A stretch of 22,977 bases of DNA from a virus: positions 1-22,977 of IMG/VR virus record IMGVR_UViG_3300021356_000183. The stretch is one strand, 5' to 3'. The notes beneath the pieces were generated by a model, which searched no databases, was not told the origin of the DNA, and was given only the letters and a program-made list of their open reading frames with translations. Each line of letters opens with the position of its first letter. Within the stretch, counting starts at the first letter, position 1. Below, in pieces: positions 9 to 22,262 of the stretch. The translations under genes were made by a program, and so were the position numbers.

Positions 9-3000
9 TTATTGTCCTCTTCTTGAGCTTACTCCTCTCCTAATTCTTGACCCCGATTGACCTCTTACTTTGTCTTCACTTTTCGATCCACCTCTTTTTG
101 TTGGGAAATACTCTTCTCCTTCTTGCTCCTCTACTTTCTTCGCTCTAGCTTCTCTTGTTTTAGATTTATAATATTCAGGTTTGTACGATTCAGTAATACC
201 AAGAGCGTTCATTGCTTCTTCAATTTTAACATCTTCGTCTGTAGCTATAGACATATTGTATATGGCTATAAACGGATCAGCCTGAGCTCCAAGTGCAATT
301 TCAGCTATAGGTCTTAATGTTTTATTAAAGTAACCATCTGTCTCCTGTAGCTTTACTGTTTTTCTGTACAACTCTAAGAAGGGGTTTGGACCTTCTGTTA
401 CGGTATATCTTTTTTTCTTATCGAAGTAACTATCTCCTCTTCCTTTTATTATAATTTGTGCACCTATATCCATTCCTTCAGCAGCAGTACCAACTATAGG
501 TATTTGATAGAATAAATTAAATCCTGATAAAGCTTTCATTACATCGTTCCATACTGCATAAAGATCATCATCATCACCAAAAGCAAATTTAAATATATTA
601 CTTGCAGCCACAAAAAGAGCATTAGCTAATCCTAAATGAAGAGCCAATGTTCTAACGTCTTTTTGTCTTGGCATTTTACCTTTAGATAAAGACCTGCCTA
701 TATTAGTTGAACTTAATAAAACTTTATTTAACATTGCAAACCCTGTGCTACCAAATTGAACTACAGCTCTAGTTATTACATCATTTCTGTTTTGAAGCCA
801 ATTTCTATCAGACCCTCTTCTAGTTTGTTGAGAGCTATTATAATCGTTGAATTTTTTAAGTGCTTCCTCTTGATCCATGCCGTTTTCAATATCTCTTTTA
901 TACACAGCTAAATGACCCATAACACCCAAAACATCACCTATTGATGTGAAAAAACCTTTAGCTGTCCTAAATCCTGAAATAGCTCTCCCTGTCTTACTAT
1001 ACCTCTTAGCCTTGTCTATAAGTGCGAGCTCTCTTCCGGACTCCAAAGAAAAGGTTTCACCCCTTGCTGCCTGTAGTATACGCATTTTAGCATCAGGCGA
1101 AATATCCATCATCTGACTTATTGATCCATATTTACCTACTAAATCTTTAGATATAGATCCATATACTTTAGCTAAGTCGATTAAAAACATAGGTAGATCT
1201 ATGGCAGCATTCATCTTTCCTTTATTATATCTATATCCGTCAAATGCATTTATAGATGATGTAGATTGCTTTATAGTCTGCACAGGCTTAAATGCCAACA
1301 CATAGCTACTAAACTTGCTTTGCACTTTATTCATTAGTTTAGTTAAACTGCTATCTAATGCATTTGGACTAATATCATTCTGAATAAGAATTCTCATCAT
1401 GTTATCTATAGATAAAGCCTGTAGTAATGTTTTAACAGATGGTATATTTAAAAATGAATTTAGCTCTTTAGTACCAACAGTATAAGCCTTGTATTTTTCC
1501 ATACTATTTACATACCTATCAAGAGCTTCGATGAATCCCAATCTATCTAAATCAACATCTTGATCTTGGGCATTTCTTTGTTTCAGATGGGCAGATGTTT
1601 CTGCATCAAGAATCATTTCAAAGTTATTGTTTGCTAGAAACTCTTCTTTCATATCTACATCAACTTCAGTAAACAAAGGAAAGTAATCAGCTATATAACC
1701 TAAGTCTCTTCCATTAACCTCAGTAAAAACTTTATTTATACCTTCATAATAATCATTACTAAGAAAATCAACAAGACCATCAGCAAAATCAGTTAATTCT
1801 TTTCCAAGGTATTCTTTAATTCTTTTTTTATTTTCTGCATTAAGACCCATTTTTTCTAATTGGGCATTTGCCTTTTCATTTAATGTCAATGCATATAAAT
1901 GAAGAACATCACTAGAAGCAAATAAATTCCTTGTATCCTTTCCCGTTTTACTATTTACCATTCCGGGAAGAACTAAGTTAGGCAAAGAATGTAGTTTAAT
2001 CTTCACATCTTTATAATTATCGAAACCAAATGATTTTGCTATATTGTCAAATTTTTCTTTTGTCTTAAATAATCCATCAAGACTTTTTGTGTGCATTATA
2101 TTTAGTTTGTCATAAACATTTTCCCTTACTACATTTTTACCTTCTATTGCAAGGTCAGCTATATTAGATAAAACCTCTGTACTAACCAATGGATTAATAA
2201 GCCATTGAAGCATTTCGACAGGTTTAGTATACTTTACATTTTTAACAAACTCTTTTAGTTTTTGAGGTATGTTATTTTTATTCCATCGCTTATATAAGTC
2301 GTCTAGCTTACGTCTTCTTTGAGCTCTTGTTAATGGAACTCCGTCTTCATCAAACAGTTCAGGATTGGTTTCAATTATCTGCTCATTTGCTTTTGCCTCA
2401 ATATCTGCCTGTTTTTTTGATTTAATAGCATTTGATGCTTTCAGCCTTTCAATTGATTTTTTTGTCATTTCTTTGACTTGATCAAAAACTTTTTGCACCT
2501 CCTCTAATGACATATCGTAAATGCCATTAAACATATCATACGCAAGTTGATCATTAAGAAGGTCTCTTTCTTTTTTAGATAATGACTCACCTTTGCTTGA
2601 CCTTTGTTGTAGCTCTTTAATTACTGCTGCATTTTCATTTAGTCTTGATTGTAATTTAATCAATCTATCTGATGCTTGTTTAGCTACTTTCTTGTCACTA
2701 CTCTTTGACTTTTTTATATCGCCTATAATAGATTTAGCTTGTATGTAAAAATTCTTTAATGTCGGGTCAATTGATTTATCTTTTAATTTAGATTTATTTC
2801 TTACTTGTCCTACAATTTTATTAGCTAAGGAATTTCTAGTTAAGTTGCGTACTTTTTCTAATTCATCAAAAGCTTTATCTGCCTCTCTTTTTATGTTACC
2901 AATATTTGTACGGTCTATTATCTTTATTAACTTACTTATTGATGTTTTTGTATATTCTTGAGATTGAATTAAGTTATCAATGATAAAGTCTTTTATTTCT

Positions 3001-6000
3001 TTTTTAACTTTAGTTAAATCTCTAGACCCAATCTTTCTGTTTTTTAGATTCTTTCTTATGTTTTCTATTTTCTTTCTAAATGTAAAGTTACCTTGATCTA
3101 GATCGATAGACTCCTGAATACCTATTAATATTTCTTGCTGAACCTGTGGGTTTTGTTCTTTAAATATAGGGTCAGCTTTTACTATTTTAGTTGCTTCTTG
3201 ACGTATTTTTGTGGCAGTACTTTTTTTGTTTTTACTTATGTACTTATCTAGCTTCTTTTTTGTATTTTCAAATAATTTAATTGCATTAGATATACCACCT
3301 GAAATACGTTCAAACTGTTTTGGTATTTTTGTAAAAACATCAAAATCAACCTCTAATGCAGCATCTATGTCTTTTTTCTTAAACTTCTTTTCTTGAAGCA
3401 TCTCACGTATGGTTGCATTATTATATCCCTTACTTCTACCAAACGCTACAATGTCATATATTGATTTATTGTCAGGGGCTAACATTAATTGCATTTCATT
3501 TTCAAATGCAACCTTTTCTGCTTCTTCAAAAGCCTTTTCCTCTGATAGTAAATCTGCAACAACTGCTTCTGTAAATTCATCAAGAGATAAATCTTGAAGT
3601 TGTTCTGATGTTAAATTAGATATACCTGTTATCTTTTTTACAAAATCAAATAATTGATCTATCCAAGCCTTAAAGTTTTTCTTTATGGCAGCGTTTACAA
3701 AAGATTGTCCTTTATTACCAATAGCAGTAGCAAGTGCCTCTTCAAGAATGTATTGATTTATTTCTGATTCTGTAGCACCATCAGCCTTCATCTTTTTTAT
3801 AATATTCTTGTATGCCTTATTGTTTCTTATGTCAGATTCATACTTAGTTCCTTTTACTAAAGCTATACCTTTATTGTATAAATCAGGAGATAGCTCTCTT
3901 GCAGTATTCATCCATATATGACCAAACTCGTGTATTGGAGTGTTGTAATTTTCTAAGCTAGGATTTAAATACAACTTTCCATTTACTATAGCACCATATA
4001 ATTTTTGCTTTTTATTTGTTATTAGTTTTTGATCATATAGGTCTTTAAATAATTTTTTAAATTGAACTTCATCCGAAACAACCTCTACATTTGGAAAAGC
4101 CTTAGCTAACTTAGTTACAAATCTTTCATAGTTTGTTTTTTGAGCGGCTTCTACAACAAATTTCTTTTGTGCGTTAAGTTCTGCTTGACGTTTAGCGTCA
4201 GCTTTTGCCTGTCCTGATGTGGTTCTTTTTGTTTTGGCAGCTCCTTTTTCTCTTTCTTTTTTTGTTGTCTTCCTTCTTATTACACCATCAATTTTTGCAT
4301 TTATTGTATTTAATATATCTTTATTTACTGAGTAAAAAGGTACAGTCTCACTCATCATTGCCACAACCTCACCTCTTATATACACAGGATAATTTTCATG
4401 TGTTTTTATACCTTCTTTTTCTTGCTGCTCCCTAGTTACAATAGCGTCATCTATATTGTCTTTTGTGATAGGTTTACCATTCTCGTCCGTTATTTTTAAT
4501 ACCATAGTCATCGCACCCATCGGAAGATCTGATGCAAATTGCTCTTTATTTTCATCACGGATTGACTCTATGAATATACCTTCTTCGCTAAACAGTTTAC
4601 CAATTTTTGTTTTTGATTTAATGTCCGTTGATGGCAATACATCTCTAAATATTTTTGCTCTAGTGTCTACATCTAAATTAGCAAATTCTTTAGCAAAGTC
4701 GTCTATATTTTTAGACTCTGATGCTGCTTTGTGAACTTGCTTAGTTTTTTTCTTGTATTTTTTTGATTTTATATCATCCATCATGGCTTTAAAAATATTT
4801 TGCCCATTTGGAGATTGTTTTATCTTATCAACAAGAGAATTAAATACCGTAATGTTTGAGTCAAACGCAGGAGTATCCATATTAAATACTACAGTATAAT
4901 CTGAATCAATAGACCCTTTTATTATTTCTCTTGCAGCTTCAGGAGTTATTGATGCCCAAGCTATACCTTTTCCGTAAACTCCATCTTGCACACCAAAAAA
5001 TGGTCCTCCCATTTTATTTTTATCAACTTTAAGTTGATCAGCCATAGCTAGATTTATTTTCTTACCCTCTAAATCTTTAAGGGTCATTTTTTTGCCTATT
5101 CTTTTTGCAAGTTCAGCATTTTCTATAATAGTAACAGGGATGGCTTTTGCAGATGACTCTGAAACAATATATGTTTTTTCACTTAACTCAGGCTGAAGTT
5201 CTTCCATAAGCTGTTTAGCTCTTTTGTTGAGCTTTACATCTTTACTTGGGTCTGTAGTTTCTAGCTGAAATTGACCTGTAGCTTCATCATTAATTGTTTT
5301 CTTTAAATCTTCTTCTATTGATTCTGACTCAATCGCAGCTTCTTCAATAACATCTTCTGATGTTTCTAATATGGCATCATCTTTTATGATGTATTGCTCT
5401 TCAACTACACCTCTTGAATCACGAGTAATTAGTTTTACAACCTGAGCATCTGAGTCATCAATAAGTTTTTCTTCTTGTCTTCTTACTTCACTTACAGGTT
5501 GATTCGTATCTTCTACCTGTACTACATCAACAGTAGTGCCGGCAGGGACTGTGAATTTTTTAAGTGGCTGATCTCCTTTGTAGTCGCTAGCTAATTGTTC
5601 GTCAACAGCAGCAAAGCTACCTTTCTTTACTTTGTGTACTGAGAAAGGCTTGCCGTCTTTTTTCTTAGGCTGCATACCCTTAAATAAGGTTTGCTCCTCA
5701 GTAGTTGTTATTTGCTCTCCCGGAGTCTTAGCTTGTTCAAGCTCAACTTTTACTTCAGGTGCAGCTTCTTCAGTTACTTTTTCTTTAACTTCAACTTCAG
5801 GTGCAGCTTCTTCAGCTACTTTATTTTTTTTCTCAAAACTTTCTTTTGCATTTGAAAAGAATCCTGACTCAATTAATTGCTTGCCTGTAAAAACTGTATA
5901 TCCTCGATCTGAATCTTTTACACCTTCATATGAGGTAAGATCTTTTGGAACAACCCTGAAGGCATATTTTTTATTTCTTAATATACCACCGTTCTCTACA

Positions 6001-8930
6001 ATTGCTTTTTCCTCCTCAGTTAATGATGCATCAAACAGAGGTGCAATTTTAAATATAGCAGCATCACCTACAAGCTTAGTTCTTTTATTTTTTGGTCTTA
6101 ACTCTTTAGTGTTTGCTATCTCCTGTATCTCTTGTGTTATCTCAGATATTTTTGGAGCAAAAGCACTAGCTTTAACCTCAGAAGAAGAAAGTTCTTCTTT
6201 AGCCTTAAGTAATTCCATTAATCTGATTTCTACATCCTTTTTATTTTTTGAAGGAGTTGTCTCCCCTGCATCTAATAATTCATTTGCATCTTTTTGGAAA
6301 CCTGCATTCTTTTGTATCTTTTGGTTTGTTTCTTTGGATATCTTACCTAAAGCTTCTTGGTTATTAGCCCAAACAGATATTTCCTTTGCTGATGCATTAT
6401 CGTTTACAAAATTAGAAATATTGGTCAGCTTATCTGCAACTTTTTTGTCGCTATCTAGCTTACCATCCATGTACATATTTATAACAGCAGTAGGTGTATG
6501 CTGACCAAAAGCACCTGCCATTTCAGCTAATATTTCCTTAGCGTCAAGCTCTTGACCGGCATTTATCATTGCAGCTGCTTCTCCTGCACCCTCCATTATT
6601 GGATCAAATACAAATCTCTCTGCTGCAAAAGATGATATTTTTTTACCCCTAGATGCAGTTCTAGATGTTTTAAAAACTCTTCCTGCCATACCTGTAGAAA
6701 GGTAATCCATCATGGCAATAGGTATACCTCTCTTTAAACCTATTTCTTTACCTTCTTTCCAAACAAGATCGTCTTTTAAACCTTTAGCTAAAGACATAGG
6801 ATCTTGCACATCATATCCCTGATTAGTTATAGCCTCTAATACTGCATTGGTGTATTCTAGTGCCAAAGCCGTAGCTGCCACACCTGTCCTTAAACCCTTT
6901 GCTGCACCTGCAAGAGTTCCACCCGGACCAAATAAACTACCCAATCCTGCACCGGTAATTGTAGTTGCAGGGACTACTTTAATACCATATGGGAGCATTT
7001 GAGTAAGTGATTCAGAAGCTAATGTTAAACCAAGTTCAATCGGATCTCTTCTAAAAGCTCTAAAAGCTTCCATAAATCCTTTAGCTGCATGAAACCTGTA
7101 TTGAGCTCTTCCTGTCTTGCCTGTTTCAGCATCCTCCATGTATTGTATTAGCCTTTTAGCGAAATCCAATGTTGATGCATCATCAGGTAAGTCAGTAATA
7201 CCTAAAGATACTTTTAGTATTTCATTCTGTGCTTTTCCTCTACTTAAACCAACCTTCCCTGCATTTAGTATTGATTGTGCATCGTTTACAAACTCATCTC
7301 TAAAATTTTTATCAAACTTTGTGTTTATGTATGACTTAGACCATTCGTACTCATTTGCCAAGATAGTGTTTTGCGATTTAAGTAATTTATAGTTTGTTAT
7401 AAAATCATCGTAGCTTTTTGGATTTATATTAGCAGGTGGCTTAAAGTTTGTCTTAATTGCTTCTTCTATATCTAAACCAAAAGTTTCTTTGAAGTAATCT
7501 TTAGTTTGATTCAGACCTTCGTCTAAAATAGTTTTTTCCTGTATAACAGCAGCTAGATTTTTACCAATAGATTTCTCATATTCTTTTTGCTCTTTAGCCT
7601 GAAGTGCATCCCAATCTTCCTTCGCCCTCATTACATCTTCATTTTGATCAAAATAGCTGTATAAGAAATCTCTTCTAGATTCTAGCTCAGACTCTATTTC
7701 ATTTATATCATCTCTCCTGTATCCGTTTATATAAAGATCTCCATATTTTTCTTTTTCTTCTTTAGTTAGAGATGAATCATTAAAAGGCATACCCTCTATA
7801 AAGTCTAATTTTTCTTCAACCTTATTAAACTCCTCCTCATTCTTTTTTAGCTCTCCATAGTTTAAACCTCTTTTGTTAAAAAAATCAATGTATTCTTGCT
7901 CTTTTTTATTTCCTACATCACGACCTTCTGATATGTTATAATCTGCTATAGTAGCATTACTTTTTATAAAATCTTTTAAACCATCGATTTCCGATTGGTC
8001 GGAAAAGAAAGACTGAAGGTCTACAGTATATGTTTTCTTGTTGGGTGCAGTTACTTCTAATGCATCACCGATTCCGGTTTCAAAAAAAGAAAAACCATAA
8101 TCCCCGAACTCTTTTGCAAAATATTCTTTTGCATCTGTTTCATTAAGATTTATGCTTTCTTTATTTATTGTTTCTAATTTATCTATAAATTCAGGGGTAG
8201 ATATTAAAAGATTTCTAGCATTAATTTCATCTTGTTCTTTTTTGTTTTTCTCCCTCTCTTCTTCTTGTTGTCTTTTTTTAAGCTCTATTTCTATATCGGG
8301 CTTAGCTGCAAGATATTCTTCATATTCTTGCATTTTTTCTGTAGGAATTTCAGGCGATGTAGTTTCAGCCTGTGGTATCTCTTCTTGAGATACACCAAGA
8401 CTAATTTCTGAATCTGAAAAATCTTTATCTTCAGACATAGGATCAAAAATATCTTTGTCAAGTGGTCTTCTTTGCTTAATAGCAAACTCAGGTAGCTCTC
8501 CACCTTCAAAAACTTCTCCTTCAATTGGCTGCTCTTCTTGCTCTGTTTTTGGAGCTTCTTTTGTTACGGTTTCTTCAGTATCTGACTCAACCTCTTCTGT
8601 TGGAGTATCTATAGTTTCTCCAACAAGCTGTATATCTTCTTCATCTGACGATGAGTCCGAAGAACCATTTTTTCCCTGATCCTGTTCTGTAGTAGATTCC
8701 GTAGTGTTTTTTTTCCCCCCAATAGGCTTTGATTTGTCTTTTTTTTTTGGAGGGTCTATTGTATATTTTGATTTAAATTCTTCAAAAGAGTTAGTATATA
8801 AACCTTCTTCAGAAACAGTATCAAATACTTTTTGAACATATTTGTCATCTTTGTATTGATCCTGAAACTCTTCATAAGATTTAGTGTAGTAACCCTCTCC
8901 TTTTATTGTATCGTATAATTTTTTTAACAT
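9..8930 (-). CDS. Giant multidomain virion protein with metallopeptidase domain
   Basis: This 2973-residue protein has visible parts in this order. Two copies of a 'LYDT..EGxYTxSxEEF' unit (5-26 and 35-56, period 30). An acidic low-complexity linker (about 60-165). Charged helical stretches. A hydrophobic Gly/Ala-rich segment (about 645-705), then an amphipathic region to about 825. A short tandem repeat EEAAPEV (about 1038-1060). A globular region (about 1280-1400) with MADQL and GGPFFGVQDG. A zinc metallopeptidase signature HEFGH at 1667-1671 with candidate third ligand E1730/E1731 (EEALATAIG). Lys-rich helices (about 1867-2216). A C-terminal region with a hydrophobic helix near 2763-2790 ending GDDDD, and a basic tail. 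The arrangement matches phage 'polyvalent' proteins (MPTase-type peptidase, perhaps an LPD38-like C-terminus), thought to be packaged and injected. The peptidase may mature the protein itself or attack host targets; this is unproven. The stop is 8 bases from the window edge, so the gene is complete. Confidence 0.8.
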   Translation of the reverse strand: MLKKLYDTIKGEGYYTKSYEEFQDQYKDDKYVQKVFDTVSEEGLYTNSFEEFKSKYTIDPPKKKDKSKPIGGKKNTTESTTEQDQGKNGSSDSSSDEEDIQLVGETIDTPTEEVESDTEETVTKEAPKTEQEEQPIEGEVFEGGELPEFAIKQRRPLDKDIFDPMSEDKDFSDSEISLGVSQEEIPQAETTSPEIPTEKMQEYEEYLAAKPDIEIELKKRQQEEEREKNKKEQDEINARNLLISTPEFIDKLETINKESINLNETDAKEYFAKEFGDYGFSFFETGIGDALEVTAPNKKTYTVDLQSFFSDQSEIDGLKDFIKSNATIADYNISEGRDVGNKKEQEYIDFFNKRGLNYGELKKNEEEFNKVEEKLDFIEGMPFNDSSLTKEEKEKYGDLYINGYRRDDINEIESELESRRDFLYSYFDQNEDVMRAKEDWDALQAKEQKEYEKSIGKNLAAVIQEKTILDEGLNQTKDYFKETFGLDIEEAIKTNFKPPANINPKSYDDFITNYKLLKSQNTILANEYEWSKSYINTKFDKNFRDEFVNDAQSILNAGKVGLSRGKAQNEILKVSLGITDLPDDASTLDFAKRLIQYMEDAETGKTGRAQYRFHAAKGFMEAFRAFRRDPIELGLTLASESLTQMLPYGIKVVPATTITGAGLGSLFGPGGTLAGAAKGLRTGVAATALALEYTNAVLEAITNQGYDVQDPMSLAKGLKDDLVWKEGKEIGLKRGIPIAMMDYLSTGMAGRVFKTSRTASRGKKISSFAAERFVFDPIMEGAGEAAAMINAGQELDAKEILAEMAGAFGQHTPTAVINMYMDGKLDSDKKVADKLTNISNFVNDNASAKEISVWANNQEALGKISKETNQKIQKNAGFQKDANELLDAGETTPSKNKKDVEIRLMELLKAKEELSSSEVKASAFAPKISEITQEIQEIANTKELRPKNKRTKLVGDAAIFKIAPLFDASLTEEEKAIVENGGILRNKKYAFRVVPKDLTSYEGVKDSDRGYTVFTGKQLIESGFFSNAKESFEKKNKVAEEAAPEVEVKEKVTEEAAPEVKVELEQAKTPGEQITTTEEQTLFKGMQPKKKDGKPFSVHKVKKGSFAAVDEQLASDYKGDQPLKKFTVPAGTTVDVVQVEDTNQPVSEVRRQEEKLIDDSDAQVVKLITRDSRGVVEEQYIIKDDAILETSEDVIEEAAIESESIEEDLKKTINDEATGQFQLETTDPSKDVKLNKRAKQLMEELQPELSEKTYIVSESSAKAIPVTIIENAELAKRIGKKMTLKDLEGKKINLAMADQLKVDKNKMGGPFFGVQDGVYGKGIAWASITPEAAREIIKGSIDSDYTVVFNMDTPAFDSNITVFNSLVDKIKQSPNGQNIFKAMMDDIKSKKYKKKTKQVHKAASESKNIDDFAKEFANLDVDTRAKIFRDVLPSTDIKSKTKIGKLFSEEGIFIESIRDENKEQFASDLPMGAMTMVLKITDENGKPITKDNIDDAIVTREQQEKEGIKTHENYPVYIRGEVVAMMSETVPFYSVNKDILNTINAKIDGVIRRKTTKKEREKGAAKTKRTTSGQAKADAKRQAELNAQKKFVVEAAQKTNYERFVTKLAKAFPNVEVVSDEVQFKKLFKDLYDQKLITNKKQKLYGAIVNGKLYLNPSLENYNTPIHEFGHIWMNTARELSPDLYNKGIALVKGTKYESDIRNNKAYKNIIKKMKADGATESEINQYILEEALATAIGNKGQSFVNAAIKKNFKAWIDQLFDFVKKITGISNLTSEQLQDLSLDEFTEAVVADLLSEEKAFEEAEKVAFENEMQLMLAPDNKSIYDIVAFGRSKGYNNATIREMLQEKKFKKKDIDAALEVDFDVFTKIPKQFERISGGISNAIKLFENTKKKLDKYISKNKKSTATKIRQEATKIVKADPIFKEQNPQVQQEILIGIQESIDLDQGNFTFRKKIENIRKNLKNRKIGSRDLTKVKKEIKDFIIDNLIQSQEYTKTSISKLIKIIDRTNIGNIKREADKAFDELEKVRNLTRNSLANKIVGQVRNKSKLKDKSIDPTLKNFYIQAKSIIGDIKKSKSSDKKVAKQASDRLIKLQSRLNENAAVIKELQQRSSKGESLSKKERDLLNDQLAYDMFNGIYDMSLEEVQKVFDQVKEMTKKSIERLKASNAIKSKKQADIEAKANEQIIETNPELFDEDGVPLTRAQRRRKLDDLYKRWNKNNIPQKLKEFVKNVKYTKPVEMLQWLINPLVSTEVLSNIADLAIEGKNVVRENVYDKLNIMHTKSLDGLFKTKEKFDNIAKSFGFDNYKDVKIKLHSLPNLVLPGMVNSKTGKDTRNLFASSDVLHLYALTLNEKANAQLEKMGLNAENKKRIKEYLGKELTDFADGLVDFLSNDYYEGINKVFTEVNGRDLGYIADYFPLFTEVDVDMKEEFLANNNFEMILDAETSAHLKQRNAQDQDVDLDRLGFIEALDRYVNSMEKYKAYTVGTKELNSFLNIPSVKTLLQALSIDNMMRILIQNDISPNALDSSLTKLMNKVQSKFSSYVLAFKPVQTIKQSTSSINAFDGYRYNKGKMNAAIDLPMFLIDLAKVYGSISKDLVGKYGSISQMMDISPDAKMRILQAARGETFSLESGRELALIDKAKRYSKTGRAISGFRTAKGFFTSIGDVLGVMGHLAVYKRDIENGMDQEEALKKFNDYNSSQQTRRGSDRNWLQNRNDVITRAVVQFGSTGFAMLNKVLLSSTNIGRSLSKGKMPRQKDVRTLALHLGLANALFVAASNIFKFAFGDDDDLYAVWNDVMKALSGFNLFYQIPIVGTAAEGMDIGAQIIIKGRGDSYFDKKKRYTVTEGPNPFLELYRKTVKLQETDGYFNKTLRPIAEIALGAQADPFIAIYNMSIATDEDVKIEEAMNALGITESYKPEYYKSKTREARAKKVEEQEGEEYFPTKRGGSKSEDKVRGQSGSRIRRGVSSRRGQ
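5752..5815 (-). repeat. Direct repeat inside the giant gene
   Basis: A 22-base sequence (starting acttcaggtgcagc on the plus strand) occurs identically at 5752-5773 and 5794-5815, a 42-base period. It encodes the repeated EEAAPEV segment, an acidic, alanine/proline-rich linker of the giant protein. Identity at the DNA level suggests a recent duplication and a site prone to copy-number change. Confidence 0.85.
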
Positions 8931-8950: not shown

Positions 8951-10726
8951 TTAATCCAAACTACCTCTTTTGGCTATTCTTGCAATAAGCTCATCATCGC
9001 CATTATTTATTATAAATGTTTTTAGTTTTTCAATAGTATCTGTAGGCTTTATCGCTAACTTTTTACCATTTTGAAGGTTATAATAATCAATTCCTCCCGT
9101 TCTAGTTCTGTTTTTCACAGGACCTACATATCTTTCTAAATACTTAGTTATAATTCCCTCTACTTCTTTGTCTTCAAAATCTTTTCTATAAACATCTGTT
9201 CCTAAATCAAATGCTGACTCATCTTTTATTGTTGCTTCTACCCTATCTCTTGCAGTTTTCCCTCTAACTGATTTTGATGTTAGTTTAGAGTGCGGTTTGT
9301 CAGGATCATATTCAAATATTTTTAATGCATTAGCTACATTTTTTAACTGACCTTCACTAGTTCTCAAAAAGAAACCTGCACTTTCTTCTACCCAATTTTT
9401 CTGTGGCTTTAAGTTTCCATTTTCATCAAAAAAGTCTAGTGGTTCAGATCCTCCGCTTAAATATATTATTTCAACTTTATCTTTGTTTCTTACTATATCT
9501 GCAACGTCAGGATTTATGCTCTTTAATTTTTTTGCTGCATAGTTTAGCTGAGCTTGATCTCCATACCAAAGCTGAGCTATAAGCCCTACTATATCATTAG
9601 ATGAAATTTCATCAGGTTTTGGTGGTTTGTCAGTCTTAACTCTAGTAGCTTTTCTTATTCTTCCTGTTTCATCTGTATCAACCTTTCTATCTAACTTACT
9701 TCTAAGTTCTGCTTTTATCTTATCTTTAATTACCCCTCTTTGCTCTTCTGTTATATCTGCTTCTATCTGATTGTTAGCATTGTAAAATACCCTAACCTTA
9801 TCACTACCCTTACAGTCTTCTCCCGGATCGCATACGGAATATTCGTTTCCTGTTTTAGGATCTTTAGATACATAATCCATAAGTAATGACCTTAGGTTTT
9901 GAGGATTACTCATCATAGATTCAATGTACCCATTTTCAGCTTTTAGGTATTCTGCACTAATTTCTTTTAACTCATCAGGAACATTTACATCTGCACCTAG
10001 CCTAGTTATATCTTCAACAGTAGTTATTGTACCTGCTTTTTGGTAGTTAGCTAATTCCCTAAATACATATTGGAACTCGCCTAGGTCTGATGCAATATCA
10101 GTTATATTTTTGCTTGCATCATATATGTTAGGACTATCCATATATATGTTAGCTATTGCCTCCATACTAGCTACGTCTGTTGGATCTGTACTATTTACAA
10201 AACCACCTTTCCCATCAGGCACTAAACGATTAGCAACAACATTACCATTGTCCTGCATTACTAAAGTCATGTTGTTAAGGTCAGTAAACTTGTTTGATTT
10301 ATCTAAAAGCTGTTGGTTGAATTTACTTAGCTTACCTTCGTCAGCCTGTTTCATAAGTTCACCGTATCGAACATCAATAAGTTTTTTTAGTTCCATAGCC
10401 CTAGCAGTAGAATCAGTAGCTCGCTGCAATATAGTCATGTACTGCTTATTGCTTAGATCACCTCTGTCATACATTCTTTTGAAAGCACCTATCTTTGGTA
10501 TAACCTCACCCTGTGCAAATTCCATGAATCTTGTGTTCCAATCTGTATTAGCACCTAAAGGTATTTCTACATTTTTTGCTACTTCAGTTAGGTCTTCAAT
10601 AGCCTGAGCTCGTTGTTGCTTTCTTTGTTGTGCACCAAGAATTTTATCAGAAAACCCTTTGCTTACTTCAGCCCAATCTACCTGACTGTCTGCACCTCTT
10701 TCTACATATCCAAACTTACTTGCCAT
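8951..10726 (-). CDS. Putative virion-associated (cargo) protein
   Basis: This 591-residue protein is hydrophilic and mostly helical, without membrane segments. The N-terminus MASKFGYVERGADSQVDWAE, followed by a KGFSDKILGAQQRKQQ helix, is one I recall from large virion proteins of marine Bacteroidota phages. Residues 20-170 look like a helical bundle (EDLTEVAKNVEIPLGAN; RFMEFAQGEVIPK). One cysteine pair is present (SVCDPGEDCKG, about 300-310). The C-terminal part is beta/alpha mixed with RTGGIDYYNLQNGKKLAIKP. No catalytic motif is visible. It lies between the small ejection-protein candidate and the giant protein (20-base gap), which suggests that the three proteins are packaged or ejected together; that is inference from gene order. 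I do not know a specific function. Confidence 0.55.
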   Translation of the reverse strand: MASKFGYVERGADSQVDWAEVSKGFSDKILGAQQRKQQRAQAIEDLTEVAKNVEIPLGANTDWNTRFMEFAQGEVIPKIGAFKRMYDRGDLSNKQYMTILQRATDSTARAMELKKLIDVRYGELMKQADEGKLSKFNQQLLDKSNKFTDLNNMTLVMQDNGNVVANRLVPDGKGGFVNSTDPTDVASMEAIANIYMDSPNIYDASKNITDIASDLGEFQYVFRELANYQKAGTITTVEDITRLGADVNVPDELKEISAEYLKAENGYIESMMSNPQNLRSLLMDYVSKDPKTGNEYSVCDPGEDCKGSDKVRVFYNANNQIEADITEEQRGVIKDKIKAELRSKLDRKVDTDETGRIRKATRVKTDKPPKPDEISSNDIVGLIAQLWYGDQAQLNYAAKKLKSINPDVADIVRNKDKVEIIYLSGGSEPLDFFDENGNLKPQKNWVEESAGFFLRTSEGQLKNVANALKIFEYDPDKPHSKLTSKSVRGKTARDRVEATIKDESAFDLGTDVYRKDFEDKEVEGIITKYLERYVGPVKNRTRTGGIDYYNLQNGKKLAIKPTDTIEKLKTFIINNGDDELIARIAKRGSLD

Positions 10727-10735
10727 ATATTATAA

Positions 10736-11650
10736 TTAAAAACCTGTGTTACTACGTCCTCTAGGATAATCCAAAATATTCGGGCGAAGAAGTTGTTGAA
10801 GTTCCTGACGTGTGACAGGCATACCACCTTCCCCATCAACGTAAAAACCGGGATCAATACCGGGATCAAACTCAACACCCTGCCCAAGATCATCTCCCTG
10901 AGCAAAACTAAAAATTGGATCGTAAGGGTTAAATTGAGTTGTACTAGGCACTATAGGTGCTATAGGTGATGTCTGCATAACAGAAGACTGACCGGTATTA
11001 GATAATGAAGGAAGAGATGCACTTTCTACAGCATCTGTTACCCCCATTGCTGCAAGCTGTGCTTCTTGACGTCTTGCACGTCTATCTGCTATGTTAGCTT
11101 TTATTTTTCTTGATAGCTGTCCATCTGACATATCTGTTACTGTTGCTCCTAAACTTCCCAATGCCTCGATACCTCCTTCTTGACCTTCTTTAATTTGTTG
11201 ATCAAGATCAGACATATATAGTTCTTGACCTGCTTTTTCTTGAAGCTGCATCTGTGCTAGTGCATCATAATCTTGCTCTTGAGCACGTGCCTGTAATATA
11301 TTTAAATCATATATATCTCCTGCCATTCTAGATGCTATATCTGCATCTATCATTTGTTTTTGAGAATAAACACCACCCAATCTACCCATGCCTCTTTCAG
11401 ATTCTCTAAGTGCCTCTATAGCTTGTGCTGCTGAAACATTAGCTGCCTCTTGCCGTCTACGATAAGCTTCTTTTGCAAGACCAACTTTTAGGAGAGGGGT
11501 TTTTTCTACAAATTTTTTAGCTTTTGAAAATGCTCTTTCCGCATCCTTTTCTGCTTCTTTCTTTAATCTTGAAGATTCAGCTGCTTGCGAAAAGCTTTTA
11601 TATGCTCCATAAGCCTGTAAACCTAAAGCTATTGCTGTTCCTATTGCCAT
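10736..11650 (-). CDS. Putative internal virion/ejection protein
   Basis: This 304-residue protein begins with a short hydrophobic, glycine/alanine-rich segment (AIGTAIALGLQAYGAY) that is not a classical cleaved signal. Next is a long charged helical region (about 20-215) rich in Ala, Glu, Arg and Gln, with probable coiled coil (KKEAEKDAERAFSKAKKFVE; RRRQEAANVSAAQAIEALRE). The last 90 residues are Ser/Pro/Thr- and Gly-rich and likely flexible. A hydrophobic N-terminus plus helical body is typical of small ejected virion proteins such as T7 gp14, which line the channel through the cell envelope; the match here is by composition and position, not by motif. It lies 9 bases upstream of another internal-protein candidate. 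A tail needle or chaperone role is the alternative. Confidence 0.55.
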   Translation of the reverse strand: MAIGTAIALGLQAYGAYKSFSQAAESSRLKKEAEKDAERAFSKAKKFVEKTPLLKVGLAKEAYRRRQEAANVSAAQAIEALRESERGMGRLGGVYSQKQMIDADIASRMAGDIYDLNILQARAQEQDYDALAQMQLQEKAGQELYMSDLDQQIKEGQEGGIEALGSLGATVTDMSDGQLSRKIKANIADRRARRQEAQLAAMGVTDAVESASLPSLSNTGQSSVMQTSPIAPIVPSTTQFNPYDPIFSFAQGDDLGQGVEFDPGIDPGFYVDGEGGMPVTRQELQQLLRPNILDYPRGRSNTGF

Positions 11651-11688: not shown

Positions 11689-12519
11689 TTAAGGGAAACT
11701 TTTCATTACTTCTGATTCTACTGCAAATAACTCAACTTTTGTATTCTCTGAATACGTTAGGTTAAATACTGCATAATGTCCTAATACACCGTGAGATTCA
11801 GCAACTGAGTTCTTAATAAATAAGAATGTCTCTGTATTTGATGGTATTGGTGTAGTCCCGGCAGGCGTTGTATCTATGACCACATTATTTGTCCCTGCCC
11901 TAAGGTTTACATTGATAGCTGTTACGTTACCTGCATAAACAGGCTCATTAGTACCTGATAAGAAATAGAAGTAATCTCCTACACTTAATATGTTACCTAT
12001 CTGAACTGTTGTCGCAAAGTTTATTGTAGCAATACCTGCACCAATAACTACTGTTGTGCTTTGACCAATACCATTTAGTGAACGCAATGCAAATTCAGGA
12101 AGAGCGGCAGGTGTAGAACCTAGCCCTTCGTTTCTAATAAATGCATACCAACTTTGTTCTTTTTTCTCAAAATAATCAGAATCAATAAACCCTGAGTCCT
12201 GTATGTCAGTTTCTATTGTAGCTGCCCAACTATCGTCTCCCTCTAAATTAAGCGTTTTAAAGAGCTTATTTTGCAATGGGGCTACATTGAATACACTTTC
12301 TAGAGAAGATGGCTTGAAAGCCTCGTCAGGAGTTCCTACCTGAGTCCAAAAGTCGGTATAGAATGTATTTCTATTTTCATTTACATTATGACGGTAAAGA
12401 TTACCGCCTTTAAAAGTGTAAAAATAGTTATTCATTCCTATCATCCAATCAGGATAGTAGGTGTAAAAAGATGGGAATCCCTGTACCCCTTCGTCGTATG
12501 TTAGTGTATAATTTGCCAT
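11689..12519 (-). CDS. Tail protein resembling a detached nozzle C-terminal module
   Basis: This 276-residue protein contains GVQGFPSFYTYYPDWMIGMN (11-30), YYTF-like NYFYTFKGGNLYRHN (31-45) and NRNTFYTDF (49-57). These are followed by FNVAP and FKTLNLEGDDSW (87-98). A beta-rich insert occupies 175-237. The C-terminus holds ESHGVLGHYAVFNLTY and VELFAVESEVMKSF. In marine phage nozzle/structural proteins I remember, the 'FxSFxxYxPxxxxxxNxxYTFKxGxLYxHN...RNTFY...FKTLNxEG' block sits in the same polypeptide as a GxYDxxxxEY block, the latter being in the upstream 1528-residue protein here. A separate subunit docking on the nozzle is therefore a reasonable inference. The gene is tightly packed behind the 308-residue gene and is the last of the tail unit before the hairpin and promoter box at 11659-11682. 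Confidence 0.6.
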   Translation of the reverse strand: MANYTLTYDEGVQGFPSFYTYYPDWMIGMNNYFYTFKGGNLYRHNVNENRNTFYTDFWTQVGTPDEAFKPSSLESVFNVAPLQNKLFKTLNLEGDDSWAATIETDIQDSGFIDSDYFEKKEQSWYAFIRNEGLGSTPAALPEFALRSLNGIGQSTTVVIGAGIATINFATTVQIGNILSVGDYFYFLSGTNEPVYAGNVTAINVNLRAGTNNVVIDTTPAGTTPIPSNTETFLFIKNSVAESHGVLGHYAVFNLTYSENTKVELFAVESEVMKSFP

Positions 12520-13460: not shown

Positions 13461-16400
13461 TTAACATAAGCAGCAGGCGTTTGATTCCGTAGCTCCATAA
13501 CATAAATCTGTAGTTTCAGTAATTGTTCTATAATCCCAAATTAAATACAAGTAGCTACCTGAAGCCGGCATATTAAACTCGGCAAAGTATGTGTTTGGTG
13601 CACCTGTATTGTCTATTGGTGTAGCTGTTGTTGCTGCCGCCAATAATGCCTGCATGTCAACATCAGTATTATCATACAATGTATTAGTTCTTAAATATTT
13701 AAATCTATCGCTTGTTTCATCAAAAACAAAATCATCAAATCCAAACTTGTTGCATATTAATCTTACCGTAGCTGTATCAGATGGTATAATACCACCACCC
13801 TGTCTTCCTGACACTTCTTGATATTGAGATACTAATGGGTTATTAGTTCCTGTTGCAAACTCAACCGACTCTGAATGTAATGGAGATGTAAATGATCCAT
13901 CTGTCCATCTGTATTCATTATGTATGAATAAACCGGCTTCATCATCGCCTGTAAAGCATACATTAACTATTGTTATCTCTTCAGCATCGGGACAATTTAC
14001 TAATACCTGCAAAGTAGTTTCATCATTCGATAACACCGTAATATAAACAAACTGCTCAGAAACAGATTGCTTAGGGAATGTAAGCGTTCCCCCTGTTGTA
14101 ACATTACCTGAAAAGTAATCTACGCCATTGTAATTTGCATTGATTGAGAATCCCGGCAATGTTGATGAGTCTTGTATAACTTGATACTCAATGTCAATAT
14201 CTCCCACAAACTCTCCTACATCTACGCAGTATGTAGTAGCTTCTGTTTCTATAACTTTAAATGTTTTTCCAACACCACAAGGATCACAAGATAGTTCACT
14301 TGGTTTTAGTATATCGTTTGAGCTCAGAACGTATTCATCCATATATGGATCAAAACCTCCTAGCTTTTGAGTTTCAAATGACTCTATAAATAAATCTCTA
14401 AACCAACTACGCATACCCTGCTCAGATATCACGGTTAGTTTTTCATTTTGAGCTGCACTACCTTTAAGCTGTATTACAGCACCACGCTTAGCATCTGTAA
14501 AATACTTATCCATACCCCATTGAACGAAACTTTCAGGGTTGTTGGATATACCATATTCTTCTACACGAGCCACCTGCTTACCTAATATTTCAGGTACTGT
14601 GATTAGCGAGCTGCCACCCGTAGAGCCTGTTATCATTTCCTTACCCTGAAGAACGTATGATATTCTATCTTCTTGCAATGTAAGTATATCAGTCTCTCTT
14701 CCAAATAGTTTCTGAATAGTACCAAACGACTGTTCGAGTGGTTTAAAATTCAATAAACCTAAATTAAATTCATTAAGTTTATTTATATTATTTTCTTGAT
14801 TATAAATACCACTATATGTCAAATCAGCAAAACGATCTGCTTCTTTAAATTCTTTTTCACTTGTTGTTAAAACCCTATTTCCAAGATCAAATGTTTTTCC
14901 TACAATTGAATCTCTTACTCTGTAGCTTTCTGCACCATTACCAAATGCATAACAATTAAAAAAGTCTGTATTAATAATTGCAGGCTGTGCGTCTGTTTGG
15001 TCTTGTTCTCCTGTACCACTTCCACCTCTATGTAATCCCGGATATCTTGTACCTGTACCTACGTCAAAATATTCATATATTTCATACGTATCAGCAGATT
15101 CATACCACACATTAGGCAATGAATCCTGAGGCTGACTTTCAAAAAGAACAGCATTGTCAGCACGAACAACCCTAACTCTACCCTGAACAGTTGCCTGTCT
15201 TCTTTCACTTGATCCACAAGACTGAGGACCTTTACATATTAAAGCCGGTTTTAGCGATGACGCTGCATCTCCATCTACCCAATAAATAATATTTTTACCT
15301 AACTCGCAACTTGGTACAGTTGAAGCTGTTGTTTGATCACCAAGCCACTCTGTTACAAAAGTAAGACCTCCACCCACAATTAGAACATCAGGATTATCTA
15401 GGTATGATTGAAAGTTTTCTCCATTTAAAAATTGCAACATATTAGGGTAGTCCCTTGTTGCTGTAATTTCAATACTTATTTCGTATGTTCTTTGTTCACA
15501 ACCAAATAAATTAGCTGTACCATTTCTGTTGAATGAAAAGAACATCTCAACACGAGAACCCTGAGGAACATCAAAAGGAACAAAAGGACTACTATTAAGA
15601 CCCATAGAAAGCCTATTTCTATCTAAAACCGCACAGTTACCTGATGTTTTTTCTACGTGTGTCTGCAACCCTGTATCAATAACAGCATCAGCATCTTGCC
15701 CTACATTTATTGAGTTAGGACTTATTTTCATATAAGTTCCTGCCGGATTACCACTTGTAATCTCATCACTAGCAAAAACTTCTTTATCTAAAACAGTTGT
15801 ATATATACAACTCTGAGAAACGCCACTTCCATCTCTTTTTACAATCAATCTATCTCCCTTTTCTACCTTTAATGAATTTTCTCCATCAAGTAAAAAGTAA
15901 ATCATCCCGTCATTATTACCTACAAAATATATATTAGTAAATATAGAATTATATCCCGCTTCATCAGGTTTAATGATAAACTTATAATGGGTAGCCCATT
16001 CAGGTGCAATTTGCGTGGTAGGAATGGTAGCTTTTATATAGTTTTTAGATGCAGAGTTAGAACAAGGTATAGAAACTGTATTGTTGTCACTAACAAGACC
16101 TGTTGAAGATCTTCCAAACTCATCCATATAAACTATACCTACTTCATAGTTTCTGTTGCTATGAAGACTCTTAACATCTCCTAAAAGCTCAAAAGATGCT
16201 GCTGCACTTAATATATAATAAAATTCGTAAACCTTGCCGATGTCAGGATTATTTGCAGGATCTAATGTGTATTTAACATAAGGAAATCTGAATCCTATCG
16301 TCTTGCTAGTTGTGTTAAAAAGTATATCTACACCTTGGTTATTATCAGATACACCACCATTAGAATCTAACTGAACATTACTAAAAGACCCTGTAATATC

Positions 16401-18047
16401 ATCTCTACCTGTACCACTAGAAGTTTTAAATACCGGCGGTCCTGCGTTAGTTGTTTTTTGTATTGGTATTTTACAATTAAAAAAATCTGTTAATGTTGTA
16501 CCGGTACAAGATATAGAAGGATCAGCAGGATCATACATCGGTTTTATATTTCTATTAGGAGCAAGCCCTCCAATACCAATAGAATTTCTAAACTCAGCAC
16601 TATCTGCTAATTCATAAATATTATTATAATCTCTTGGTAGTGTAAAAATATGCGTTAAATCAAAAGCCGGCGTCCCTTGAGTGGCAGGATCAAGTATAGG
16701 AGCTGATGTGTTTGGATAAAATTCACTATGTATGAGAGAAAAATCAAAAATAATGCTAGCTCCTTCAACCAAATCTGAATCAGGTATACTGCTGAAATCA
16801 AAAGTAACTAATCCATCTGTTATAGTAGTGAGACCTAATGGATACTCTGCATCAGAAATGGTTTCGTCAATTTCAGTAATTTGATTTTCTTCACTAATTA
16901 AATCTACAAAGTATTCGATTTTTGTAGGATTTAACCCTCTTGTTAAATTATATCCATCTACATAGTTTCCATATATAAGCCTATTGCCCATCATTGTTTG
17001 TGCTAGAGCAGTTCTAGGCACATTATCATATAACCTTAATATTTCAGAATCAGGAAGTATGGTAAATATATTGCTATTATCAAAGGTAAAATTATAATCA
17101 GAATTATCTGCCAAACCTAGCTCAGCCTTATCTAATTTTTCTATTACTTTTATTGTGCTATCTTCAGCATCTTTAAATAATAAATCAATACCTACAACTA
17201 AAGGTCCTCCTGTGTTTACGGTAACACTAGCAGTATTAAACTTATTTGTCATGCCTTCATTTAAGCTAGTATCTATACTATACCTAAATGATTGAGGATA
17301 AAAAGCAGGTTGAGAAAAAGGAGATGTTGCTGAATAATCATTATCAGCATATCTATATCTGTATGCAAAACATATAAACCTATCCTCTAAAAAAGTTTCT
17401 AATGAACTAGTTTCTAATAAATCAACCGAAGGAGAAAACAAAGGTGGTTTTTTTATAACCTGTAATTCTTCTTCTAATATTTGAGGCTGTTTATTATAAT
17501 CAAAAGCTCTAGGAATTATAATTACCTGTAATGCAGGATCAGGATAGTTTCTTTTTACATTAATAAATCTTGGTGGATTTATGTTATCTGTAAAAAACAA
17601 TAAATCTTCTACTAAATCAATACCTGTTATAAGATAGTCAGGATTAAAGTTTAGTGTTGTGATTACATCATTTTTATTTACACTAATAACATGATATACT
17701 ATTTGATCTGTTAAAGTATTATATGATACTATCAAATCAATTTTACCAAGAGGTGCTTCTGTAGATACAGGAAAATCGCTATCGTGAACAAACCAATATA
17801 TTGTCTCGTTAGCTCCATCCTCATAAGCACCAATACATCTAGCAGATGTACTCAAAGGAACTCCTTTATATTGTAAAGTAGTTAGACCTAAGTTGCCCTT
17901 AGTGTTTTCTATTACACCGATCTCTGAATTTTCAGTAGACCCCATACGAACATTAATGGCATCTACATACTCACCGTTAGGTATAAGTCGTTCATCGACC
18001 GACTTATTCATTTTCCCTTTTATAAAGTTTCTTGTAATATTCGCCAT
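13461..18047 (-). CDS. Large tail nozzle/muzzle-type protein
   Basis: This 1528-residue, mostly beta-strand protein is the main tail component. Residues 7-52 hold the signature FIKGKMNKSVDERLIPNGEY followed by DAINV and GVIENTKGN, typical of beta-propeller tail nozzle proteins (T7 gp12/P22 gp10-like and crAss-like 'muzzle' proteins). A second conserved block lies at about 1110-1245: LTLQEDRISYVLQGK, VARVEEYGISNNPESF, KYFTDAKRGAV, GMRSWFRDLF and GGFDPYMDEYVL. After it comes an Ig-like region (about 1280-1355) and a cysteine-containing C-terminus ending CCLC. In relatives I remember, the DPxxxEYVL block is followed by a 'FYTFKGGxLYRHN' segment; here that segment is in a separate gene (12519-11689). 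No frameshift or gap is seen within the frame. The protein likely forms the tail channel and its distal cap. Confidence 0.75.
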   Translation of the reverse strand: MANITRNFIKGKMNKSVDERLIPNGEYVDAINVRMGSTENSEIGVIENTKGNLGLTTLQYKGVPLSTSARCIGAYEDGANETIYWFVHDSDFPVSTEAPLGKIDLIVSYNTLTDQIVYHVISVNKNDVITTLNFNPDYLITGIDLVEDLLFFTDNINPPRFINVKRNYPDPALQVIIIPRAFDYNKQPQILEEELQVIKKPPLFSPSVDLLETSSLETFLEDRFICFAYRYRYADNDYSATSPFSQPAFYPQSFRYSIDTSLNEGMTNKFNTASVTVNTGGPLVVGIDLLFKDAEDSTIKVIEKLDKAELGLADNSDYNFTFDNSNIFTILPDSEILRLYDNVPRTALAQTMMGNRLIYGNYVDGYNLTRGLNPTKIEYFVDLISEENQITEIDETISDAEYPLGLTTITDGLVTFDFSSIPDSDLVEGASIIFDFSLIHSEFYPNTSAPILDPATQGTPAFDLTHIFTLPRDYNNIYELADSAEFRNSIGIGGLAPNRNIKPMYDPADPSISCTGTTLTDFFNCKIPIQKTTNAGPPVFKTSSGTGRDDITGSFSNVQLDSNGGVSDNNQGVDILFNTTSKTIGFRFPYVKYTLDPANNPDIGKVYEFYYILSAAASFELLGDVKSLHSNRNYEVGIVYMDEFGRSSTGLVSDNNTVSIPCSNSASKNYIKATIPTTQIAPEWATHYKFIIKPDEAGYNSIFTNIYFVGNNDGMIYFLLDGENSLKVEKGDRLIVKRDGSGVSQSCIYTTVLDKEVFASDEITSGNPAGTYMKISPNSINVGQDADAVIDTGLQTHVEKTSGNCAVLDRNRLSMGLNSSPFVPFDVPQGSRVEMFFSFNRNGTANLFGCEQRTYEISIEITATRDYPNMLQFLNGENFQSYLDNPDVLIVGGGLTFVTEWLGDQTTASTVPSCELGKNIIYWVDGDAASSLKPALICKGPQSCGSSERRQATVQGRVRVVRADNAVLFESQPQDSLPNVWYESADTYEIYEYFDVGTGTRYPGLHRGGSGTGEQDQTDAQPAIINTDFFNCYAFGNGAESYRVRDSIVGKTFDLGNRVLTTSEKEFKEADRFADLTYSGIYNQENNINKLNEFNLGLLNFKPLEQSFGTIQKLFGRETDILTLQEDRISYVLQGKEMITGSTGGSSLITVPEILGKQVARVEEYGISNNPESFVQWGMDKYFTDAKRGAVIQLKGSAAQNEKLTVISEQGMRSWFRDLFIESFETQKLGGFDPYMDEYVLSSNDILKPSELSCDPCGVGKTFKVIETEATTYCVDVGEFVGDIDIEYQVIQDSSTLPGFSINANYNGVDYFSGNVTTGGTLTFPKQSVSEQFVYITVLSNDETTLQVLVNCPDAEEITIVNVCFTGDDEAGLFIHNEYRWTDGSFTSPLHSESVEFATGTNNPLVSQYQEVSGRQGGGIIPSDTATVRLICNKFGFDDFVFDETSDRFKYLRTNTLYDNTDVDMQALLAAATTATPIDNTGAPNTYFAEFNMPASGSYLYLIWDYRTITETTDLCYGATESNACCLC

Positions 18048-20804: not shown

Positions 20805-22262
20805 TTAATCTTTAAAGATAAAGAAGTTGTTTGCACCCATAGTACATACAGCTCTCTCAGAAAGGAAGTGTACTTCCATTGCATCAAGGTCGCTGTTCAT
20901 TGCACCACCTGCTGAACCTGTAATCCACGTTTTGTAACGTCTATCTTCAGTCTCTGAAGCTCGGTAACGAACGTGTAAGAAAGGTCGCTTAGCATTCTTT
21001 CCAAGAACTTGGTCGTAAACAGTAGTAGAACCCGCAGGTACTAATAATCCGTTTACTGTATCTGTTCCTAAAGTAGAAGAAAGACCACCACGCATAGTTG
21101 GGTCGTTTAGGTATTTCCAATCAGTTTTGTAGAAATCATAACCTCTACGGAATCCTGTGAAACCTAAGTTAAGAGCCATATCCTTATCGTTGTCAAATAG
21201 TCCGTAAGACGTACCACCTGCACCGTAAGAATTTTGAGCTGCTAACATATCATCGATATCAAAACCAAACTCTCTGTTCAAGAAAATAACATTCTCTTCA
21301 ATAGAACCTTGCTTATCTAATCGTCTGATGATATTGTCAAAGTCAGCTAATGCCGCAGGATTACCACCTGCCCACACGTTTCCTCGGTCTTCTACTGTGT
21401 AGAAAATACCTTCAGAACCTTTGAAACCTGCTGTAAACGCACCTGAAGGGTTACCGCCTATGTTTTCTGCGGGAGTAGCTTCAATCATTGCTGTCTCTAG
21501 GTAATCATCAAAACGTAAACGAGTTTCGTGCTCAGACTTCAAGTACCAAAGGTATCCTGTAGCACCATTCTCAGTAGTAACCTCTACCCATCCGATTTGA
21601 GCCATATCAGAACCTGATACTGCATACTTATCTTTAAGGATAATTGGAGAAGTTTCGAAAATAGAATCATCAGCTTCTAAAGAACCGTCCATTCCGGCAG
21701 TTCCTTTTTTAAACTCAGAACCATAAATGAATATTTCATAAATGTTAGCTGCGTTATCATTGCTGATACCTGCTGACTCATAGAAAGCTACATCAATAGT
21801 TCCTGCTCCTGTATTTACTGCTGTAACGATAGCTTTATTAGTAGTAGCTACTGAACCTGTTAAGGTTTTAGGGCTAATCATAATAGTTTGACCTACTCGA
21901 ATAGCGATAGAACCTGCTGTAAGCCCTACTGCTGCACGGTCAGGTACTAATGCATCGTTAATAGTAAATGTAGCTGTATCTGAATTGGTCAATACAGTTG
22001 TAGTACAGTTTACATACTTAGTGTGAAGTCTTCCTTGCTCAGCCCATTTGATAAGGTCAGAGTTAGAAGGCATTTCTGCTCCTACCATTCTAAGGAATGA
22101 GGAGATTGTACGATTACCATATCTTTCAAATTCTTTTTCATAAGTATCAGGTAGATACTGATTCAAAAAATTGAAATCGGTAATATAATTTGTTGCGAGT
22201 GGGACTTGCTGTGCACTTGGCTGCAAATCAAACCCCGGTGTTGTTTGGACACTTCCTGCCAT
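20805..22262 (-). CDS. Major capsid protein
   Basis: This 485-residue protein is the best capsid candidate: its size is right, it follows a scaffold-like gene and it is followed at once by a strong terminator. The N-terminus (about 1-80) is helical and rich in aromatic residues (QYLPDTYEKEFERYGNRT). Residues 115-185 form a beta-rich insert (VGQTIMIS to EIFIYGSE). Residues 205-262 carry a conserved-looking stretch with DKYAVSGSDMAQIGWVEV and RLRFDDYLE. The C-terminal half is rich in glycine and aromatic residues and ends FFIFKD. I recall similar N-termini in capsid proteins of uncultured marine phages and crAss-like phages, whose capsids have the HK97 fold; that is from memory, not a search. 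The leader before the ATG is A-rich (AAAAAAGAAAAATT) with no real Shine-Dalgarno site, as expected for translation in Bacteroidota. Confidence 0.85.
   Translation of the reverse strand: MAGSVQTTPGFDLQPSAQQVPLATNYITDFNFLNQYLPDTYEKEFERYGNRTISSFLRMVGAEMPSNSDLIKWAEQGRLHTKYVNCTTTVLTNSDTATFTINDALVPDRAAVGLTAGSIAIRVGQTIMISPKTLTGSVATTNKAIVTAVNTGAGTIDVAFYESAGISNDNAANIYEIFIYGSEFKKGTAGMDGSLEADDSIFETSPIILKDKYAVSGSDMAQIGWVEVTTENGATGYLWYLKSEHETRLRFDDYLETAMIEATPAENIGGNPSGAFTAGFKGSEGIFYTVEDRGNVWAGGNPAALADFDNIIRRLDKQGSIEENVIFLNREFGFDIDDMLAAQNSYGAGGTSYGLFDNDKDMALNLGFTGFRRGYDFYKTDWKYLNDPTMRGGLSSTLGTDTVNGLLVPAGSTTVYDQVLGKNAKRPFLHVRYRASETEDRRYKTWITGSAGGAMNSDLDAMEVHFLSERAVCTMGANNFFIFKD

Follow-up and report, generated by a model that had tools for sequence, protein, structure and literature searches.

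What does a virus do with a protein of 2,973 residues that carries a peptidase-like motif in its interior? The question is raised by a 22,977-base viral record, analyzed here over its full length and called the window, 38.8% of which is taken up by one open reading frame. The original prediction, made from the letters of the DNA, had described a gene of about 40% of the window encoding a packaged protein with a metallopeptidase core, of which the gene has been confirmed and the other two claims are supported. The reading that we favor, with a probability of roughly 0.6, is that the giant is the largest DNA-ejection protein of a crAss-related podovirus and delivers an active zinc metallopeptidase that acts during or after entry.

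Layout of the giant protein and its family

The gene is a single complete open reading frame on the minus strand (9..8930), a strand left unnamed in the original prediction, with an ATG at 8930 and a stop at 11-9; the plus-strand reading of the same stretch contains many stops. The repeat, the acidic linker, the Gly-rich segment, the HEXXH motif, the Lys-rich helices and the basic tail that had been named beforehand are all present at the residues given for them. The chain begins with two EGxYTxSxEEF repeats (residues 1-57, 8760..8930, minus strand as for all features below; copies at residues 12-22 and 42-52), which resemble repeats at the start of many relatives, and continues with a poorly conserved, acidic low-complexity linker (residues 58-200, 8331..8759) that has a net charge of -24. 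Then come a conserved backbone module (residues 560-960, 6051..7253) with a Gly-rich hydrophobic stretch at about 640-700, a conserved unnamed domain (residues 1236-1560, 4251..5225), the zincin domain (residues 1597-1807, 3510..4142), a Lys-rich helical backbone module (residues 1807-2210, 2301..3512), with a net charge of +27 for residues 1850-2110, and a conserved C-terminal backbone module (residues 2210-2900, 231..2303) with hydrophobic stretches, one of them near 2765-2785. The basic tail (residues 2945-2973, 12..98) closes the protein, and its last 25 residues have a net charge of +6.

Scans of the giant with Pfam, PHROGs, NCBIfam and PADLOC returned nothing above cutoff, and the zincin is the only recognizable enzyme domain found in the chain. 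Several regions had been described as nameless; 560-960, 1236-1560 and 1807-2900 proved to be conserved modules of a protein family, although a library name is still absent for them. In one relative (L040) the 560-960 module gave a weak match to DUF6861, and PDB sequence searches with the 560-960 and 2210-2900 profiles yielded no relative. The modules 560-960, 1807-2210 and 2210-2900 recur together, and the first of them is present in 69 of 73 giants that were sampled by their C-terminus. Judging from composition and position, this backbone may work in membranes or in a conduit.

The family contains some irregular members. A homologue of 3,859 residues in MW202828 (L001:14524-26103) is misannotated as "reticulocyte binding/rhoptry protein" and has HEFGH twice; the domain copy around the first motif is diverged and shows no clear third Glu. 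In phage phi46:3 (L019:6055-12574), two open reading frames of 1,439 and 626 residues replace the giant, for which phi18:3 has a single one of 1,935 residues. A relative of 2,173 residues with the 1236-1560 domain, the zincin and backbone modules occurs in CP070801 (L184), a metagenome-assembled genome labelled Aenigmatarchaeota, and is likely to stem from a mis-binned phage.

Gene neighborhood and probable packaging

The genes on the minus strand follow the order major capsid protein (20805..22262; phrog_13704, E 5e-99), two ring/tail proteins, a virion protein of 1,528 residues, a protein with a crassvirus muzzle C-terminal domain (11689..12519; PF25729, E 3.4e-15), proteins of 304 (10736..11650) and 591 residues (8951..10726), and the giant, which is the last gene of a morphogenesis block like those of crAss phages, T7 and N4. 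Within the crassvirus muzzle model this match is confined to the C-terminal end, and the 1,528-residue protein at 13461-18047 may represent the rest of the muzzle. The muzzle domain is a trait of the Crassvirales, but the relatives of the capsid protein are those of elemoviruses, Pervagoviridae and similar flavophages and come from phages of Flavobacterium, Cellulophaga and Maribacter. Because zincin matches in bacterial genomes fall nearly all into the Bacteroidota, the host probably belongs to this phylum.

After the tail genes, the giant is the third of a small-medium-giant series of putative ejection genes. Homologues of the small protein are phi38:1 gp99 (E 4e-8), elemovirus gp20 (E 6e-9) and Gundel_1 gp72 (E 3e-6), and the medium protein occupies the position of N4 gp51, T7 gp15 and phi40:1 gp100. 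In 49 of 50 relatives a homologue of the medium gene directly precedes the giant; the order including the small gene is kept in 39 of 40. The same order is found in T7 (gp14-16), N4 (gp52-50) and crAss001 (gp45-47), where the products are internal or cargo proteins. In the Cellulophaga phage phi40:1, gp99, gp100 and gp101 at the same position carry annotations from MS/MS proteomics, as does the giant gp123 of phi18:3. On account of its place in the block and of these positional equivalents in virions, the giant, which sits at the T7 gp16 and N4 vRNAP position, is very likely a packaged DNA-ejection protein, as had been predicted. The giants detected by MS/MS are shorter (1,691 residues for phi40:1 gp101 and 1,935 for phi18:3 gp123); phi40:1 gp101 is nearly identical in sequence to phi38:1 gp101, and neither the latter nor phi18:3 gp123 contains an HExxH motif or the zincin. 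The record of phi38:1 (NC_021796) bases its structural genes on "phi18:1_gp101" and similar entries, and phi18:1 has only 65 features; phi40:1, in which gp98-gp101 carry the MS/MS notes, was probably meant.

A predicted gluzincin domain within the giant

The HEFGH motif (residues 1667-1671, 3918..3932) is the sole HExxH in the giant, in which 0.005 would be expected from composition, and the EEALATAIG segment that had been noticed together with it begins at residue 1730; both were confirmed. They lie in the best-conserved part of the giant, residues 1597-1807. H1667, E1668, H1671 and E1731 (3735..3737), the second Glu of EEALA and putative third zinc ligand, are invariant among 62 aligned relatives, an alignment in which some members were found by a pattern containing HEFGH and for which the zincin-based scan favors intact motifs. 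A sample without this bias was therefore assembled by collecting giants with a C-terminal query and keeping those with at least 1,000 residues upstream (n=73). The zincin of the window's type was found in 53 of them, all 53 with HExxH, and 15 of the remaining 20 have a diverged form with HE[VI]xHA. When the sample was clustered at 90%, 50 groups resulted: 36 with this zincin (type 1), 10 with the diverged zincin and HE[VI]FHA (type 2) and four without a zincin. HExxH is kept in all 46 zincin-bearing clusters, including 36 of 36 for type 1, and in type 2 the third Glu is present in NETMA-type motifs as read by eye. One of the four zincin-free clusters is truncated, and the remaining three comprise the shortest giants (1,726-1,993 residues). 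The zincin is missing from a few backbones and swapped for another subtype in others and thus appears as an important but replaceable module.

A zincin fold had been predicted around residues 1600-1770, and the AlphaFold (AF2) model of the domain does contain one (pLDDT 93.4, pTM 0.90), with the HExxH helix (67-84 of the model) following a hairpin and the third Glu on a helix at 125-155. With its invariant ligands, this confident model supports the reading of residues 1597-1807 as a gluzincin and, with it, the metallopeptidase core of the original prediction. A Foldseek search of the PDB gave no firm match. Re-alignment to PDB structures ranked zincins first, all with Z below 8: domains of anthrax lethal factor reached 6-7, PPEP-1/Zmp1 5-6 and IrrE/PprI 5-6, so that the M34-like group of lethal factor and PPEP (5-7) lies within about 1-2 of IrrE/PprI. 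A PDB sequence search with the zincin profile found no relative and, in particular, no match to lethal factor or PPEP. Among viral structure models, the zincin matched that of Gundel_1 (TM 0.71) and one from an elemovirus structural protein; weaker matches were a crAss-like structural protein and numerous giants whose annotation names large polyvalent protein associated domains (LPD).

Profile comparisons connect the domain with the zincin of the N4 virion RNA polymerase (vRNAP). Type 2 aligns with type 1 with an hhalign probability of 95 (E 3e-8, 180 columns) and with the N4 zincin with a probability of 94 (E 1e-7), the reversed controls staying below 1; when the window's type was compared with the N4 zincin directly, the probability was 74 and the score 40.6, as against 25.5 with the motif masked and 16.9 for the reversed control. 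Iyer et al. (2017, PMC5512222) described the zincin-like MPTase of polyvalent proteins and classed N4 vRNAP with these; by way of the type-2 bridge, the giant's zincin is most likely a member of the same N4-type MPTase group. The label "polyvalent-type" is hence upheld for the peptidase part of the giant by the N4 bridge together with the structural matches to LPD-annotated giants. As in the MPTase proteins of Iyer et al., the third Glu sits on a helix that comes after the HExxH helix, the domain resides in giant phage proteins encoded beside virion genes, and more than one copy can occur (the giants of L001 and L084 carry two); unlike those, the giant's zincin is not recognized by Pfam, PHROG or NCBIfam models, and no second known enzyme was found in the chain. 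Polyvalent proteins combine at least two domains of disparate biochemical activity; in the giant the zincin alone is recognizable, and the 1236-1560 domain carries no assigned activity.

The second well-conserved domain, residues 1236-1560, lies just upstream of the zincin. Its AF2 model (pLDDT 88, pTM 0.82) had no firm PDB match with Foldseek, and the sequence had no library match; rows suggesting an ASCH/PUA-like fold had Z values of about 4, and this assignment was rejected as too weak. The domain is present in 16 of 36 type-1 clusters and one of 10 type-2 clusters. It also adjoins the zincin in proteins without the remaining backbone, a pairing whose persistence suggests that the two form a cassette. 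One of these proteins, of 1,338 residues (L067:7073-11089), consists largely of the two domains and lacks backbone modules; the other is a giant of 2,991 residues (L084:4979-13954) in which two zincin-family domains flank the 1236-1560 domain, the first without HExxH in the matched range.

Possible role of the zincin in comparison with known ejection proteins

Among characterized proteins, N4 vRNAP (gp50), whose C1 domain is a zincin (PMC12633501; PDB 9pnq, 9pnr, 11gp), offers a close parallel in arrangement: it is an ejected giant encoded after small and medium ejection genes, and its HExxH domain lies inside the chain, ahead of an extensive helical region. The C-terminal half as a whole agrees with the N4 CTD in order and nearly in length, but homology between the two is not borne out, as hhalign aligns the zincin part only. 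Gundel_1 gp74 (2,482 residues) from a Tenacibaculum phage (Pachyviridae; host strain AHE14PA) shares a zincin that is 36% identical, a related C-terminal module (2210-2900; E 1e-15 and 1e-18) and the position behind small and medium genes, but its N-terminal half is related to phi38:1 gp101 and elemovirus (elemoF) gp18, and it has no detectable 1236-1560 domain. It thereby links the group of phi38:1 gp101 with that of the window's giant. The crAss001 cargo protein gp47 likewise follows muzzle, C1 and C2, is found in virions and has one HExxH, but it differs in the location of this motif and shows no demonstrable sequence relation. Its HEAFH, in a zincin-like context at residue 2157 near the C-terminus (L101:18120-25145), was not accepted as homologous, being known from a single sequence with hhalign probabilities of at most 3, and is a lead only; a search for relatives of gp47 returned gp47 alone. 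T7 gp16, the largest of three ejection proteins encoded in the order gp14-gp15-gp16, is comparable in position, but no sequence similarity was found, and the endolysin domain annotated in gp16 was not found in the giant. HMM searches with the family modules against T7 gp14-16, crAss001 gp43-50 and N4 gp50-52 stayed at chance level, about that of reversed controls.

The sequence of events that we infer from these data would begin with packaging of the giant in the head, along with the small and the medium ejection protein from the adjacent upstream genes. At infection it would be threaded through the tail before the DNA, and its backbone (560-960 and 1807-2900) would help to form, or occupy, a conduit across the envelope. 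The zincin, preceded by the 1236-1560 domain, would be delivered as an enzymatic module into the envelope or the cytoplasm and might then act on a host protein or release domains of the giant itself, the two options that the original prediction had named. What weighs against this reading is that, apart from the bridge between the zincin and N4, the modules have no sequence match to T7 gp16, crAss001 gp47 or N4 vRNAP, that the PDB fold matches of the zincin reach only Z 5-7, and that phi18:3 gp123 and phi38:1 gp101, the near-twin of phi40:1 gp101, lack the zincin.

Invariance of the metal site speaks for catalysis, and we consider it probable that the zincin is an active zinc peptidase. The domain could instead bind zinc for a structural or packaging purpose and need not cut. 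N4 vRNAP requires its MPTase region for encapsidation (PMC5512222), and the N4 CTD represses transcription, both of which would fit such a role. However, the catalytic Glu of HExxH, which a zinc site of purely structural function could do without, is as invariant as the ligands, and a purely structural role is decidedly improbable. That the giant is a virion RNA polymerase or a polymerase-associated protein, as crAss001 gp47 is called, has in its favor the shared gene position with gp47, a virion protein with HEAFH near its C-terminus, and the fact that the zincin of N4 sits on a polymerase. Yet family-library scans of the giant gave no polymerase match, the structure models covering 1236-1560 and 1597-1807, and its modules show no similarity to crAss001 gp47, gp49 or gp50 or to the N4 polymerase; we regard this possibility as very remote.

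If the domain cuts, the time of cutting has to be considered. The zincin might process the giant or its neighbors before or during packaging, in the producing cell or in the capsid, as Iyer et al. (PMC5512222) inferred for P1 DdrB, a protein present in processed form in the head. Gene fusion and splitting in relatives such as phi46:3 would be in line with this, as would the lengths of the giants, because zincin-bearing backbones have at least 2,339 residues and the zincin-free ones are the shortest; this gap is partly trivial, however, given that the zincin-free giants lack other modules as well. No conserved cleavage site was identified, and N4 vRNAP, to whose zincin that of the giant is linked by profiles, is packaged uncleaved (PMC5512222), which argues against cleavage before packaging. 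Self-processing at this stage is in our view unlikely, and we lean towards a peptidase that acts after ejection. A more far-reaching and speculative idea, which we put forward with little confidence, is that the 1236-1560 domain and the zincin form a transferable device, a recognizer joined to a peptidase, which Bacteroidota phages insert into otherwise different injected giants, and that the slot is refilled by different zincin subtypes because successful entry depends on the cutting of a specific host protein.

Proteins of this kind are already known as polyvalent or ejection giants with an MPTase, for example N4 vRNAP. New are a family that escapes four family libraries, the domain upstream of the zincin and the occurrence of the zincin on one backbone in present, swapped and absent form. 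According to both the 2017 survey of polyvalent proteins (PMC5512222) and the recent structure of N4 vRNAP, the role of metallopeptidases in injected phage giants is still open. The family numbers more than 100 related giants, in which one backbone occurs naturally with the zincin, with a swapped zincin or without any, and Gundel_1 is a cultured relative with a zincin; this makes the question of what the zincin does directly testable.
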